Shown piece by piece: positions 22,270 through 33,571 of a DNA stretch of 33,571 bases (position 1 is the stretch's first letter; each line of letters starts with the position of its first letter). The notes below the pieces were generated by a model. The model was not told where the DNA came from and ran no database searches. It was given only the letters and a program-made list of their open reading frames with translations. A program made the translations under genes and the position numbers. The stretch covers positions 1 to 33,571 of the forward strand of contig SHVL01000026.1 in NCBI GenBank assembly GCA_009694305.1, read 5' to 3'. The stretch comes from Thermoleophilia bacterium. Lineage in GTDB: Bacteria; Actinomycetota; Thermoleophilia; Gaiellales; Gaiellaceae.

Positions 22270-22549
22270 GCCCGGTCACGCGCTCCGTCGTCGAAACGGG
22301 CTTCCCCGGAGGAACCTGCGTCGCCGGCTCGGGCCGGGCGGAACCGCGGCACCTGGGAGGGAGTCCTTAGCGCTGCTTCCTTCCGGACCTGACGCGGTTC
22401 GAACGCTCCCAGTGCGCGGGACCCGACCTGTCAACACCTCGTGCGCAGACCAATCCCGATGAAACCGCCCCTCGGACGGCGTTCGGTCCCGCTGGAGCGG
22501 ATTTCGGGTTCAGGGAACCGCTACCTCCCCACCTAGCGCGACCGGGCGG
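22270..22549 (-). ncRNA. ffs: Signal recognition particle RNA, large bacterial type
   Basis: On the minus strand the apical helix 8 motif GTCAGGTCCGGAAGGAAGCA is exact for SRP RNA, the Ffh-binding region. Near the 5' end GCTAGGTGGGGAGGTAGCGG followed by CCCGAAATCCGCT matches the Alu domain of the long Gram-positive form. The two ends pair: GCGCGACCGGGC at 22536..22547 against GCCCGGTCACGCGC at 22270..22283, forming helix 1. The estimated length is about 280 nt, with ends uncertain by several bases. dnaX follows 33 bp downstream, a familiar arrangement. The region 22550-22764 shows no gene. Confidence 0.93.
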
Positions 22550-24224: not shown

Positions 24225-25472
24225 TTACATCCGGTCGATCATCGCCTGGCCGAAGGCAGAGCACGACACCTCGTTCGCGCCGTCCATCAGGCGCGCGAAG
24301 TCGTAGGTGACCTGCTTGTCCCCGATGGCCGCTTCGATCGACGAGACGATCAGGTCGGCAGCCTCCTTCCAGCCGAGATGGCGCAGCATCATCTCGGCCG
24401 AGAGGATCAACGAACCGGGGTTGACCTTGTCCTGGCCCGCGTACTTCGGTGCCGTCCCATGCGTTGCCTCGAACAGCGCCACCGTGTCGGACATGTTCGC
24501 GCCTGGAGCGATGCCGATCCCGCCGACCTGTGCCGCGAGCGCATCGGAGATGTAGTCGCCGTTCAGGTTCGTCGTCGCGATCACGTCGTACTCGCCGGGG
24601 CGCAGGAGGATCTGCTGCAGGAAAGCGTCGGCGATCACGTCCTTGACGACGATCTCTCGGCCCGTGTTCGGGTTCGTGAAGCTCATCCACGGCCCCCCGT
24701 CGAGCGGCTGTGCCCCGAACTCGCTCGCTGCGAGGGCGTAGCCCCAGTCGCGGAATGCGCCCTCGGTGAACTTCATGATGTTGCCCTTGTGCGTCAGCGT
24801 GACGGAGCGCCGATCATTGTCCACCGCGTACCTCAGAGCCTGGCGCACGAGCCGCTCTGTCCCTTCCCTCGAGATCGGCTTGATACCGATGCCGGACGTC
24901 TCCGGGAAGCGGATCTTCCGCACGCCCATCTCCTCCTGCAGGAACGCGATCACCTTGCGAGCACCCTCCGACTCCGCCTCCCACTCGATCCCCGCGTATA
25001 TGTCCTCGGTGTTCTCGCGGAAGATCACCATGTCGGTCTGCGTCGGATCCCTGAGTGGGCTCGGCACGCCACGGAAGTAGCGCACAGGGCGCAGGCACAC
25101 GTAGAGGTCGAGCTCCTGGCGGAGGGCTACGTTCAGCGAGCGAATCCCGCCGCCGACGGGTGTTGTCATCGGGCCCTTGATCGAGACCGCGTACTCGCGC
25201 ATCGCGACGAGCGTCTCGGCCGGCAACCACACGTCGGCGCCGTAGAGACGGGTGGACTTCTCACCCGCGTAGACCTCCATCCAGTGGATCGATCGCGCGC
25301 CGCCGTACGCCCGTGCCACGGCCGCATCGACGACCGCCTGCATGACAGGCGTGATGTCCGCGCCGATGCCGTCGCCCTCGATGAAGGGGATGATCGGGTT
25401 GTCCGGCACGGGTTGTCCGGCAACGATTCTGGCTCCGCCCTCGGGCGCGACGATGAGTGATGTCTCGATCAT
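24225..25472 (-). CDS. icd: Isocitrate dehydrogenase (NADP+)
   Basis: The 415-residue enzyme oxidatively decarboxylates isocitrate to 2-oxoglutarate. It is strikingly like the E. coli homodimeric enzyme: [11 protein letters not shown], the phosphorylation segment [14 protein letters not shown] (Ser112, equal to E. coli Ser113), [18 protein letters not shown], and [17 protein letters not shown], whose Lys-Tyr pair marks NADP specificity. The ATG at 25472 is preceded by GAGGAA at a good distance; an upstream in-frame start is unlikely. It is divergent from aceK across 95 bp, so the target and its kinase/phosphatase are neighbours. Many actinobacteria instead use a monomeric or other IDH type. 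Confidence 0.96.
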
Positions 25473-25567
25473 TTCGGTATTCCTCGCTCGCTTGTGTGTG
25501 GCTGAAGTTTCCGTCAATCTACGGCATCTCCCAGTGCGCCCGCGCGCTTTACTACGCTTCACGTACG

Positions 25568-27331
25568 GTGGACGGCGATACGGAGACACGCGCGGACGAG
25601 ATTGCTCGGCGGATTACCCGCGTTCTGATCGAGGGATTCGCCCGCCATTACGGGCTCTTTCGGGAAGCCAGCTCGGGTGCGAAGCACCGCTTCGAGGTCG
25701 CGGCCTGGACGGAGGTGCAGCAGGCGGTGCGCGAGCGAAACCGCTTCTACGACGACCGTGTCGAGGAATGCGTCGAGCGGCTGAACGGCGAGCTCGCAGC
25801 GGGCACGATCGACGATGCCACGTGGCGTCGGGCGAAGCTGCTCTATATAGACCTACTCGTTGACCACAAGCAGCCCGAGCTTGCCGAGACGTTCTTCAAC
25901 TCGGTTGTCACCAGGGTGATCGGGCGCACCTACGTCCGCAATGACTTTGCTTTCGTGCGCGCTGCGGTCTCGACCGAGTACATCGAGTCGGATCCGCCGA
26001 TCTACCGGAGCTACTACCCCGTCGAGACGGGCCTTCGGGTTGCCCTGCTCGCCATCTTCGCCGACTTCGGCTGGCGTCTGCCCTTCGCCGACCTCAAACG
26101 AGATGTCGGCTTCGTCTGGCAGACATTACTCGAGCATTTCGGCGGCGAGTGGCCGGCGCGCGAGCCGAACTACCAGGTACAGGTGCTCGGCTCGGCGTTC
26201 TACCGCAACAAGGGCGCCTACGTGATCGGCAAGATCGTGAACGGCAACGTCGAAACGCCCTTCGCCGTCTGCGTGCTCCATGACGCGGCCGGCCGGCTGG
26301 TGCTCGACACCATCCTGTGCGACTCGGAGAGCATCTCCGTGCTCTTCTCGCTCTCGCGGGCATACTTCATGGCCGACATGGACGTACCCTCGGGGTACGT
26401 GCAGTTCCTGCAGACGCTGATGCCCGCAAAGCCCCGCTCCGACCTGTACACGGTGGTCGGCCTCGCAAAACAGGGGAAGACGCTCTTCTTCCGCGACCTG
26501 CTGCATCACCTGCATCATTCGCAGGACGCGTTCGTCGAGGCGCCCGGGACGCGCGGCCTCGTGATGCACGTCTTCACCCTTCCCTCGTACCCCTACGTGA
26601 TCAAGGTGATCAAGGACGAGTTCGGCCTCTCGAAACATTCCGACCGCGCAACGGTGAAGCGCAAGTTCCTGATGGTCAAGGAGATCGACCGCGTGGGTCG
26701 GATGGCCGACACGCTCGAGTTCAAGCACCTGGCTCTGCCTCGTTCCCGTTTTGCGCCCGAACTGCTTGCGCAGCTTCTCGACCTCGCTCCGTCAACGGTC
26801 GAGATCGACGGTGAGGATTTGATCGTCGGCCACTGCTACGTCGAGCGTCGTATGACGCCGCTCAATCTCTACCTCGAGACGGCGACGGCGGAGGAGGTCG
26901 AGCACGTCGTCCGCGAGTACGGAGACACGATCCGCGAACTCGCTATTGCGAACGTGTTTGCCGGGGACATGCTCTGGCGCAACTTCGGGGTCAACCGCCA
27001 CGGCCGCGTCGTCTTCTACGACTACGACGAGATCGAGTACCTGACCGACTGCACGTTCCGTGCCGTCCCGCCTGCGCCGAACCCCGAGGCAGAGCTGTCG
27101 GCGGAGCCCTGGTACCCGGTTGGCCCACTCGACGTCTTCCCCGAGGAGTTCGAGACGTTCCTGCTCGGCAACCCCCGGGTACGCGGGGCGTTCCTGCGCT
27201 ACCACGCCGAGCTCCTGCGGCCCATGTTCTGGCAGAACTGCCAGCAACAGGTGGCGCGCGGCGAGATCGTGGACTTCTTCCCCTACCCCGAGTCGATCCG
27301 TTTCTGCCGGCGCTACGACGTGCCGGTGTGA
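25568..27331 (+). CDS. aceK: Isocitrate dehydrogenase kinase/phosphatase
   Basis: About 587 residues from a GTG at 25568 (E. coli AceK has 578). It reversibly phosphorylates IDH on the active-site serine, switching flux between the TCA cycle and glyoxylate bypass. The N-terminal regulatory domain includes [10 protein letters not shown]. The kinase part has the nucleotide loop [17 protein letters not shown], the lysine in [12 protein letters not shown] (K346), the catalytic [14 protein letters not shown] (D467) and the metal-binding FYDYDE. All blocks are present and unbroken. An upstream ATG extension to 25457 overlaps icd and looks non-conserved. aceA and aceB are not in the window. Confidence 0.95.
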
Positions 27332-30861: not shown

Positions 30862-30924
30862 TGGAGTCCTCCATTGGGAGTATAGGGCGAAAGCCAGGGC
30901 TAAAGGTAACAGCAGTGTGGTGTC

Positions 30925-30978
30925 AGTGTGGTGTCAGGTCTCGCATTCACGCACTCCGCTCGCTCCTCAGGAGCCGCC
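30925..30978 (-). repeat. 54-bp repeat, copy 1 (fragment of a RAYT-like gene 3' end)
   Basis: Identical over 54 bp to 33418..33471. On the minus strand it encodes the last residues of the transposase frame at the right edge (RRLLRSERSA, stop) followed by GCGAGACCTGACACCAC. It is a displaced copy of that gene's tail without the rest of the gene. Confidence 0.92.
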
Positions 30979-30985
30979 CAGTGTG

Positions 30986-31066
30986 GTGTCAGGTCTCGCG
31001 TTGCCGCACGCCGAGTCCAGGGTCGCAGCGGGTGTCAGGTCTCGCGTTGCCGCACGCCGGGTCCAG
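30986..31066 (+). repeat. Two tandem REP-like units with an inverted partner nearby
   Basis: Thirty-five-base units at 30986..31020 and 31032..31066 begin GTGTCAGGTCTCGCGTTGCC, continue GCACGCC and end GTCCAG; they differ at one base. They share GTGTCAGGTCTCGC with the 54-bp repeats at 30925 and 33418. A related inverted core, AGACCTGACCCC, follows at 31103..31114. This cluster fills the upstream half of the 456-bp gap before the flavoenzyme gene; 31115-31317 shows no further gene. Confidence 0.85.
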
Positions 31067-31317
31067 GAGTCCGTCGGCAAGCGCCAGCAGATGGAACGAA
31101 GAAGACCTGACCCCGGTCTCACCCGGTATCAGCGCGGGATCAGCTAGCACGGAGGGCGCAAAAACCGCACGCATAAGCGGTTCGTCGTCACGGGCCGGAG
31201 GATCGGTGCAAGGCTGAGCGTGCGAAATGCGGCCAACAAGTGCGATCCCGCGTGCTGCCGGTCAAGGAGTGCGGGGGTGGTATGTTCGCCGGGCCACAAC
31301 TCCCTCGGAGGAAGAAT

Positions 31318-33327
31318 ATGCCGCGTGATCCTCGATTCGACCTCCTCTTCGAGCCTGTTCGCATCGGGCCGGTGACGGCCCCGAACCGCTTCTACCAGGT
31401 GCCCCACTGCACGGGCATGGGATACCGGCGGCCTCAGACACTCGCCGGGATGCGCGAGGTGAAGGCGGAGGGTGGCTGGGGTACGGTGTGCACCGAGTAC
31501 TGCTCGATTCACCCCTCTTCCGACGACGAGCCGTTCCCCTCCGCCTCTCTCTGGGATGACGGGGACATCGACCGGCACGCGCTGATGGTCGAGAAGGTTC
31601 ACGCCCACGGAGCCCTTGCCGGCGTCGAGCTCTGGCACGGAGGTGCAGCGAGCGCAAACCACTACTCGCGCGAAGCCCCGCTCGGTCCAGCGAGTATCCC
31701 GGCCGGCGTCTACGACCCCGTGCAGACCCGGGCGATGGACAAGACCGATATCCGCGAGTTCAAGCGCTGGCACGTCGAGGCGGCGCGACGCGCCCAGAAG
31801 GCCGGGTTCGACATCGTCTACGTCTACGCGGCCCACTGGTATCTGATCCAGCAGTTCCTGCTGCCCTCGAACCAGCGTTCCGACGAGTACGGCGGCTCCC
31901 TCGAGAACCGGGCTCGGCTACTCCGCGAGCTGATCGTAGAAACGAAGGAGGCCGTCGGGGACACGTGCGCGGTGGCGGTGCGCTTCTCGGCGAGCACAGG
32001 TGGTGACGACGACGATCAGGACACGGCGGAGCCCCGGGAGATGCTGGAGCTGATGGCGGATCTGCCGGATCTGTGGGACATCACGGTGCACGACTACAGC
32101 TACGAGATGGGAACGTCGCGGTTCATCCCGGAGGCCGCGCTCGAGGCGACGATGTCATGGGTCAAGAGCGTGACGGACAAGCCCGTCGTCAGCGTGGGGA
32201 GGTTCACGTCGCCGGAGACGATGCTGCGGCTCGTCCGTGACGGCGTCATCGATCTCGTGGGGGCAGCCCGTCCTTCGATCGCTGATCCCTTCCTGCCCCA
32301 GAAGATCGCGGAGGGACGTGAGGACGAAATCCGCGAGTGCATCGGCTGCAACATCTGTTACACCGGCGACCAGACCGGGACGCCGATTCGTTGCACCCAG
32401 AACCCCACGATGGGAGAGGAGTGGCGGAAGGGTTGGCATCCAGAGCAGATTCCGGCGAAGGGGTCGGACGCGAGGATCCTGATCGTCGGTGGAGGTCCCG
32501 CCGGTCTCGAAGCGGCGGTGTCGCTCGGCAAGCGTGGCTACGACGTGGCCCTGGCCGAGGCCCGCAGAGTGCTGGGGGGTCGGGTCGCGCTCGAGTCGTC
32601 ATTGCCGGGGCTCGGCCAGTGGGCGCGCGTACGTGACTGGCGTCTCAACCAGATCGAGAAGCTCCCGAACGTCGAGGTCTACCTCGAGAGCATGGTTGAC
32701 GAGGAGCAGATCCTCGACTTCGGCGCCGATCGCGTCGTCGTCGCAACCGGCGCGCGGTGGCGAAGAGACGGCACGGGCCGCTGGCATACGTCAGCGATAC
32801 CGGGTTCGGAGTCTCCATCGATCCTCACGCCGGACGACGTCATGGCAGGGGCGATGCCGAGCGGCCCCGTGGTCGTGTTCGACGACGACCACTACTACAT
32901 GGGTGGGGTGATCGCCGAAGCCCTGCGGCACGCCGGACTCGAGGTCACCCTGGTGACGCCCGCGAATGAGGTCTCGACGTGGACGACCCACACCGACGAG
33001 CAGCATCGAATCCAGTCGAGGATCCTCGGGCTCGGCATCGCAGTCGAGACGGGGGCGGCCCTCGTCCGTGTGAACGAGGGCTCGGTGATCCTCGAGTCCG
33101 TCCACACCGAAGCGACCAGGGAGGTCGAGGCTCCGAGCGTCGTGATGGTCACATCCCGCGAGCCGCTGGACAGCCTCTACTACGCATTGAGCGATCGCAT
33201 TCCCATCCAGCGCATCGGTGATTGTCTTGCTCCGGGAACGATCGCGACCGCGGTCTACTCGGGGCACCGCTACGCCCGCGAGGCGGATGCCGAAGTGGCT
33301 ACCGACGTAGCGTTCTCTCGCGAGTAG
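31318..33327 (+). CDS. Trimethylamine/dimethylamine/histamine dehydrogenase-family flavoenzyme
   Basis: The 669-residue iron-sulfur flavoprotein closely resembles trimethylamine dehydrogenase. The N-terminal TIM barrel begins RDPRFDLLFEPVRIGP, with NRFYQVPHC carrying the cysteine (C31) that forms 6-S-cysteinyl-FMN. TEYCSI supplies Tyr61, and YVYAAH the catalytic Tyr170/His173. The 4Fe-4S ligands are C341, C344, C347 and C359. The second half has an ADP-binding Rossmann fold (ILIVGGGPAGLEAA). The two tryptophans of the trimethylamine aromatic bowl are not found, so the amine substrate probably differs. The ATG at 31318 follows GGAGG. No electron-transfer flavoprotein genes are adjacent. Confidence 0.92.
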   Translation: MPRDPRFDLLFEPVRIGPVTAPNRFYQVPHCTGMGYRRPQTLAGMREVKAEGGWGTVCTEYCSIHPSSDDEPFPSASLWDDGDIDRHALMVEKVHAHGALAGVELWHGGAASANHYSREAPLGPASIPAGVYDPVQTRAMDKTDIREFKRWHVEAARRAQKAGFDIVYVYAAHWYLIQQFLLPSNQRSDEYGGSLENRARLLRELIVETKEAVGDTCAVAVRFSASTGGDDDDQDTAEPREMLELMADLPDLWDITVHDYSYEMGTSRFIPEAALEATMSWVKSVTDKPVVSVGRFTSPETMLRLVRDGVIDLVGAARPSIADPFLPQKIAEGREDEIRECIGCNICYTGDQTGTPIRCTQNPTMGEEWRKGWHPEQIPAKGSDARILIVGGGPAGLEAAVSLGKRGYDVALAEARRVLGGRVALESSLPGLGQWARVRDWRLNQIEKLPNVEVYLESMVDEEQILDFGADRVVVATGARWRRDGTGRWHTSAIPGSESPSILTPDDVMAGAMPSGPVVVFDDDHYYMGGVIAEALRHAGLEVTLVTPANEVSTWTTHTDEQHRIQSRILGLGIAVETGAALVRVNEGSVILESVHTEATREVEAPSVVMVTSREPLDSLYYALSDRIPIQRIGDCLAPGTIATAVYSGHRYAREADAEVATDVAFSRE

Positions 33328-33417
33328 AAGCCCCGCGTTCGCTCGCCCGTTTGCAATCAGGAGAGGAGGCGTTCGCCGGCCGGGTCGAGGAGCGGCTGGT
33401 CGGAGAGGAGTGTGGCG

Positions 33418-33471
33418 AGTGTGGTGTCAGGTCTCGCATTCACGCACTCCGCTCGCTCCTCAGGAGCCGCC
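33418..33471 (-). repeat. 54-bp repeat, copy 2 (native 3' end of the RAYT-like gene)
   Basis: Identical to 30925..30978. This copy joins the end of the transposase reading frame with its adjoining GCGAGACCTGACACCAC, so it is likely the source of copy 1. The two copies are in the same orientation and enclose the amine dehydrogenase gene. Confidence 0.92.
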
Positions 33472-33571
33472 TGCTGACGGTCGAGTAGTGGCAGCCGAGA
33501 TGACCGCCGATCTCCCCGAGCGTGTAGCCATACCGGCGGTAGGCGACGGCGATCGGGTCGGCCTCGGCCCG
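33440..33571 (-). CDS. REP-associated (RAYT/IS200-like) transposase, C-terminal 43 residues
   Basis: A minus-strand frame open to the window edge begins RAEADPIAVAYRRYGYTLGE, continues IGGHLGCHYSTVSRRL and ends LRSERSA. This is the C-terminal helix-turn-helix typical of RAYT transposases (YxYT..EIA.HLG.HYSTVSR). The Y1 catalytic domain (HUH and tyrosine) would lie outside the window. RAYTs mobilise short REP sequences, and such sequences with the common core GTGTCAGGTCTCGC lie immediately downstream and again at 30931-31045. Its stop codon is inside the 54-bp repeat. Confidence 0.75.
   Translation of the reverse strand, partial: RAEADPIAVAYRRYGYTLGEIGGHLGCHYSTVSRRLLRSERSA

Follow-up and report, generated by a model that had tools for sequence, protein, structure and literature searches.

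A TIRYT-like transposase gene end and related terminal repeats beside an amine dehydrogenase gene in a Thermoleophilia genome

Two described systems come closest to the repeats considered here, and both are built around transposases of the Y1 superfamily. In the RAYT/REP system and its REPINs, such a transposase is associated with flanking inverted repeats and paired non-autonomous units (PMC2817692, PMC3116915), the classical REPs being palindromes with a GTAG/GTGG tag (PMC2817692, PMC3733652). The TIRYTs are defined by Di Nocera et al. 2013 as Y1 genes with flanking terminal inverted repeats, many of which carry the sequence GGGGWSAS, common to the majority of the published repeats and not to all of them (PMC3733652). 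According to a later classification, most TIRYTs belong to TnpA-REP subclass 2.1, in which the C-terminal helix-turn-helix is of the Bac_DnaA_C, HTH_23 or HTH_28 type, REPs are absent, and no REP-like sequences are reported near the genes (PMC6006769). Here, we describe a locus of a Thermoleophilia bacterium that looks like an ordinary instance of this known, little-studied family of bacterial mini-transposons, contained in a stretch of 33,571 nucleotides (assembly GCA_009694305.1, contig SHVL01000026.1), hereafter the window.

Repeats and gene end in the window

The features under study lie towards the right end of the window and are the following:

30925..30978, minus strand: left copy of a 54-bp repeat, an orphan 3' remnant of the transposase gene with its terminal repeat (similarity from 30911; aligned with relatives)
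30979..31030, plus strand: solo terminal-repeat unit in the same orientation (repeat and core search)
31031..31115, no strand: REPIN/MITE-like paired unit, GGTGTCAGGTCTCGC on one side and an inverted GGGGTCAGGTCTTCTTCGTT opposite (fold; 92% copy on contig C14)
31318..33327, plus strand: flavoprotein gene like histamine and trimethylamine dehydrogenases (Pfam Oxidored_FMN and Pyr_redox_2; 3k30, 6de6, 1djn)
33418..33471, minus strand: right copy of the 54-bp repeat, the downstream terminal repeat with the last 11 transposase codons (aligned with relatives)
33443..33571, minus strand: TIRYT/RAYT-like Y1 transposase gene, 3' part only, coding for a helix-turn-helix at the C-terminus and closed by the stop codon TGA (translation; helix-turn-helix matches; homology to genome G046)

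A preliminary description of this DNA had placed an exact 54-bp repeat on both sides of the flavoenzyme gene in the same orientation, with two further units and an inverted core, all sharing one sequence, beside the left copy. The two 54-bp copies are indeed direct repeats with 100% identity, in a region of 3.2 kb that, when shuffled 50 times by mononucleotide, gave no exact repeat longer than 16 bp, and the left one holds, as had been claimed, only the last codons of the gene (11, with the stop) and its tail. Left and right remain similar for about 14-20 bp outside the repeat (30911-30978 against 33406-33471, about 68 bp matching at 94% with a small gap), and CAGTGTGGTGTCAG is tandemly repeated beyond the outer end. 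The two extra units are real as well, at 30985 and 31031, with 37 bp in common at 97%. An inverted core does exist at 31095-31113; however, it is part of a related second class of units, GGGGTCAGGTCTTCTTCGTT, and not of the shared core.

Both classes are dispersed. The core GTGTCAGGTCTCGC occurs exactly four times in the window (30931, 30986, 31032 and 33424) and has five matches there with up to two mismatches, against 0.78 expected. The preliminary description had proposed a search of the genome for such cores, and three further exact sites were found outside the window, with none for the reversed pattern. For the 19-base core of GGGGTCAGGTCTTCTTCGTT, allowing up to two mismatches, the genome search gave 13 sites, and the reversed control none. 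A selenocysteine tRNA gene (G000:C66; L077:2240-2360) is followed within a few bases by a repeat unit.

From left to right, the left cluster consists of a partial repeat, the 54-bp copy, the solo unit and the paired unit. The latter folds better than its shuffles (z -2.1 and -2.65), contig C14 carries a 93-bp copy of it with 92% identity, and parts of it recur on contigs C3, C16 and C66; with inverted ends, a short spacer, dispersal and the capacity to form a hairpin, it fits a REPIN/MITE-like unit. Its ends are of two classes, resembling the window's transposase end and the repeats of the transposase gene of genome G041, respectively. The single units fold no better than their shuffles (z +0.50, +0.18 and +0.72).

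At the right end of the window, the minus strand translates to RAEADPIAVAYRRYGYTLGEIGGHLGCHYSTVSRRLLRSERSA followed by a stop codon. The contig ends at 33571, inside the transposase gene, and the rest of the gene lies beyond, so that only the C-terminal helix-turn-helix is visible; it matches HTH_23 with E 7.8e-5 and 22.8 bits, just under the curated cut-off of 24.6, and HTH_38, likewise under the curated cut-off. Neither a Y1_Tnp domain nor the missing part of the gene was found anywhere in the assembly. The best relative of the tail, in a genome of the same genus (G046, contig C41), is 81% identical over 37 amino acids in one comparison and 83% over 36 in another. It is a full-length gene, the product of which carries Y1_Tnp (40.3 bits, cut-off 23) and, at its C-terminus, matches HTH_23 with 24.5 bits against a cut-off of 24.6. 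Owing to this homology, the earlier designation of the gene as RAYT-like holds at the level of the Y1/HUH superfamily. Compared with G046, the window frame has, counted by eye, a net four extra bases near its end and terminates immediately ahead of the repeat, so this copy may be slightly damaged.

The missing body of the transposase gene may be a casualty of assembly. Five of about 14 repeat-unit clusters in the genome are found no more than 150 bp from the end of a contig, where 0.17 would be expected, and this concentration indicates that contigs tend to break at the repeats, so that unit counts are likely to be low. In fact, the end of C14 and the start of C38 share the same 149 bases, at a repeat unit (L083:2257-2405, L278:1-149), which points to a break in the assembly at that place; with these two merged as one cluster, the proportion becomes 4 of 13 (p 1e-5).

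Full-length relatives and the class of the element

Eight full-length Y1/HTH genes in the fetched loci were compared, and inverted repeats surround most of them. In six (those of G046, G011, G049, G059 and G041, and one of the genes of G039) exact inverted cores flank the gene; for G067 there are two same-orientation copies upstream and, just downstream, a core with one mismatch, and for the second G039 gene no exact core was present within the fetched locus. The downstream repeat is also present in the window, where the upstream end falls beyond the assembly. In G046, G011 and G059 the downstream repeat includes the stop codon: the proteins end in ...CKT and the TGA belongs to the repeat (GCAAGACC-TGA-CMC). 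Furthermore, repeats and gene tend to occur together, since, in a set of 103 genomes from the family, at least three exact GKGTCAGGTCTYGC sites are present in 12, the helix-turn-helix tail (E below 1e-8) in 10 and both in 8 (hypergeometric p 9e-8, phylogeny ignored).

The preliminary description had taken the units for REPs, an interpretation that their sequences do not support. By reading, no GTAG/GTGG tag is present in them, and the single units form neither an imperfect palindrome nor a significant hairpin; they fit instead the terminal inverted repeats of TIRYTs (PMC3733652, PMC6006769). The repeats read GG(G/T)GTCAG overall. The unit at 31095-31115 reads GGGGTCAG and fits GGGGWSAS, and the main unit, at the transposase end, reads GGTGTCAG, one base off. 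The helix-turn-helix expected for subclass 2.1 is there, with scores just below the curated cut-offs.

A canonical RAYT/REP system, with GTAG-tagged palindromic REPs and a domesticated REP transposase, would account for the membership of the Y1 superfamily, for the match of the G046 protein to NCBIfam REP_Tyr_transpos (58.7 bits, under a cut-off of 80) and for the clustered and paired units, which resemble REPINs or BIMEs. The single-unit hairpins, with z about 0, and the lack of the tag stand against it and led us to reject it; moreover, the C-terminal helix-turn-helix of the protein is typical of subclass 2.1 and not of the REP-flanked subclasses, so that we consider such a system very unlikely.

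The element is thus best filed as a TIRYT, with the catalytic domain and the upstream repeat of the window copy out of sight. With the TIRYTs, or TIRtrons, of subclass 2.1 it shares, judging in part by its relatives, a Y1 gene that encodes a helix-turn-helix at the C-terminus and lies between inverted repeats with a start similar to GGGGWSAS; in both, repeats sometimes overlap the 3' end of the gene and are scattered as singles, dimers and clusters (PMC3733652, PMC6006769). It differs in that the catalytic domain of the window copy lies beyond the contig, in that one repeat class reads GGTGTCAG, and in the gene copies with deletions and the orphan 3' tails found here, which the consulted passages of those papers do not describe (PMC3733652, PMC6006769). 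With RAYT/REP and REPIN systems it has in common the superfamily of the transposase, the flanking inverted repeats and the paired non-autonomous units, whereas REPs are tagged palindromes and the window units are singly not self-complementary (PMC2817692, PMC3116915); by analogy, the element may nevertheless work like a RAYT/REPIN system.

Short length and terminal inverted repeats recall MITEs too, and some of the derivatives are internal deletions of the autonomous element (G046:C41, G061:C51), with the difference that the partner is here a Y1 transposase. Target-site duplications are typical of MITEs of other transposases.

Mechanism and origin of the left copy

Shortened copies of the transposase gene recur in related genomes. 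In particular, one copy in G046 (C41:337-480) has kept its two terminal repeats but no more than about 40 codons, from the C-terminal part, in G061 (C51) residues 4-48 are fused to residues 209-268, and G067 has three orphan tails; G011 has two more, which lie near contig ends and could have been cut by the contig edge. In G049, a REPIN-like unit on C321 includes a stretch 81% identical to the 5' part of the local transposase unit. As one of two alternatives, the other being the deletion of a full copy, the preliminary description had proposed that the transposase mobilises its own 3' end as a non-autonomous unit, and the recurrence of tail-only and internally deleted derivatives makes this a plausible origin for the left copy.

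We regard it as probable that the contig end cuts through a TIRtron, and that the segment 30925-31115 consists of non-autonomous derivatives. The contig end would truncate a TIRYT-type Y1/HUH gene of subclass 2.1, of which the window retains the 3' end together with the terminal repeat downstream; about 0.8 kb more of the gene and then an inverted GG(G/T)GTCAGGTCT repeat would be expected on the 5' side. The cluster would then comprise a 3'-end remnant of the gene, a solo terminal repeat and a paired REPIN/MITE-like unit, all of the same or of a sister repeat class. By analogy with IS200/IS605 and with RAYT/REPIN systems, the terminal repeats, in single-stranded form, are probably the substrate of the enzyme, and short stretches of DNA between them, among these copies of the transposase gene with internal deletions, would be mobilised in trans. 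That the enzyme moves the repeats is what we infer from these analogies. The reading draws on the homology of the tail to a full Y1 gene of the same genus, the inverted flanks in six of eight relatives, the dispersal of the repeats and their co-occurrence with the helix-turn-helix, the deleted or tail-only copies in G046, G061, G067 and G011, and the fit of GGGGTCAG to GGGGWSAS and of the helix-turn-helix to subclass 2.1. Against it are the absence of this copy's catalytic domain and upstream repeat from the assembly, the one-base departure of GGTGTCAG from that consensus and the lack of reported REP-like sequences near subclass 2.1 genes (PMC6006769).

The left 54 bp would accordingly stem from a transposition event rather than from plain duplication or from the erosion of a full copy. 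The similarity that continues about 14-20 bp past the repeat is, however, not predicted by clean transposition of a repeat-bounded unit and, together with the tandem CAGTGTGGTGTCAG, suits a simple duplication at least as well. The DNA between the units at 30925, 30979 and 31031, which form direct repeats, could have been deleted; the left copy might thus be what is left of a second full transposase copy lost by recombination between direct repeats, or a local duplication, with no transposition of the 3' end. This leaves unexplained the recurrent tail-only copies and the deleted copies with both repeats in other genomes, for which other origins are possible, and we give it a substantial chance, somewhat short of even.

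Returning to transposition of the 3' end, one may ask whether solo 3' ends are a regular by-product of the TIRYT transposases in this lineage. The right terminal repeat would at the same time be the end of the coding sequence, and internally deleted or one-ended copies could thereby form a standing non-autonomous population, of which the window would be one case; this extension is speculative and, in our judgement, rather unlikely. If it were true, the window would catch an element that has kept 100% identity with its parent over 54 bp. The origin of REPIN and MITE populations is an open question, and possible intermediates are the full genes with both repeats, the gene that has an internal deletion but retains both (G046:C41) and the tail-only pieces.

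Paired repeat units are numerous in G049, G059, G038 and G016. Several interiors of the G049 units are related in subfamilies (pairwise tests, z up to 21), so these units look, from their sequences, like a diverged family, and an earlier idea that their fixed-length interiors were unrelated was dropped; the G059 interiors are mostly not alignable, the best pair reaching only z 4. The outer span of the paired units is nearly constant in each genome, about 148 bp in G049 and 126 bp in G059 (L208-L221).

The dehydrogenase gene and other features of the window

The gene between the two 54-bp repeats (31318-33327) is intact and encodes an FMN/FAD enzyme of 669 amino acids. Its best match among solved structures is histamine dehydrogenase (3k30, E 1.5e-223; also 6de6), with trimethylamine dehydrogenase likewise among the closest, and the name amine dehydrogenase, given to it in the preliminary description, is a fair one on the strength of the 3k30 match.

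Its position between direct repeats could suggest that these bracket it as a composite unit, with the gene as mobile or excisable cargo, and its patchy distribution would agree with this: the best match in the same genus has 54% identity (G044), and relatives with 74-84% identity come mostly from metagenome-assembled genomes of Acidimicrobiia and Actinobacteria. The preliminary description had also suggested that recombination between the direct repeats, 2.4 kb apart, might remove the gene. For comparison, no close ortholog of the gene, or of the flanking cupin gene, was found in the genomes of the genus, nor an empty or occupied sister site. Among 20 relative loci, though, none has the window repeats beside the dehydrogenase gene, one of them (L091) showing a single bare core match about 4.5 kb upstream, and none shares flanks with the window, the gene alone being alignable. 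With neither adjacent repeats nor synteny with the window in the relatives checked, the cargo interpretation is unsupported and appears highly improbable, and the dehydrogenase gene is probably a bystander. Y1_Tnp was absent from the nine searched genomes that hold dehydrogenase relatives.

Two further features were observed elsewhere in the window. The gene for AceK, the isocitrate dehydrogenase kinase/phosphatase (25457-27331, plus strand), adjoins an isocitrate/isopropylmalate dehydrogenase gene (24225-25589, minus strand), and a large bacterial signal recognition particle RNA is encoded on the minus strand at 22278-22541.
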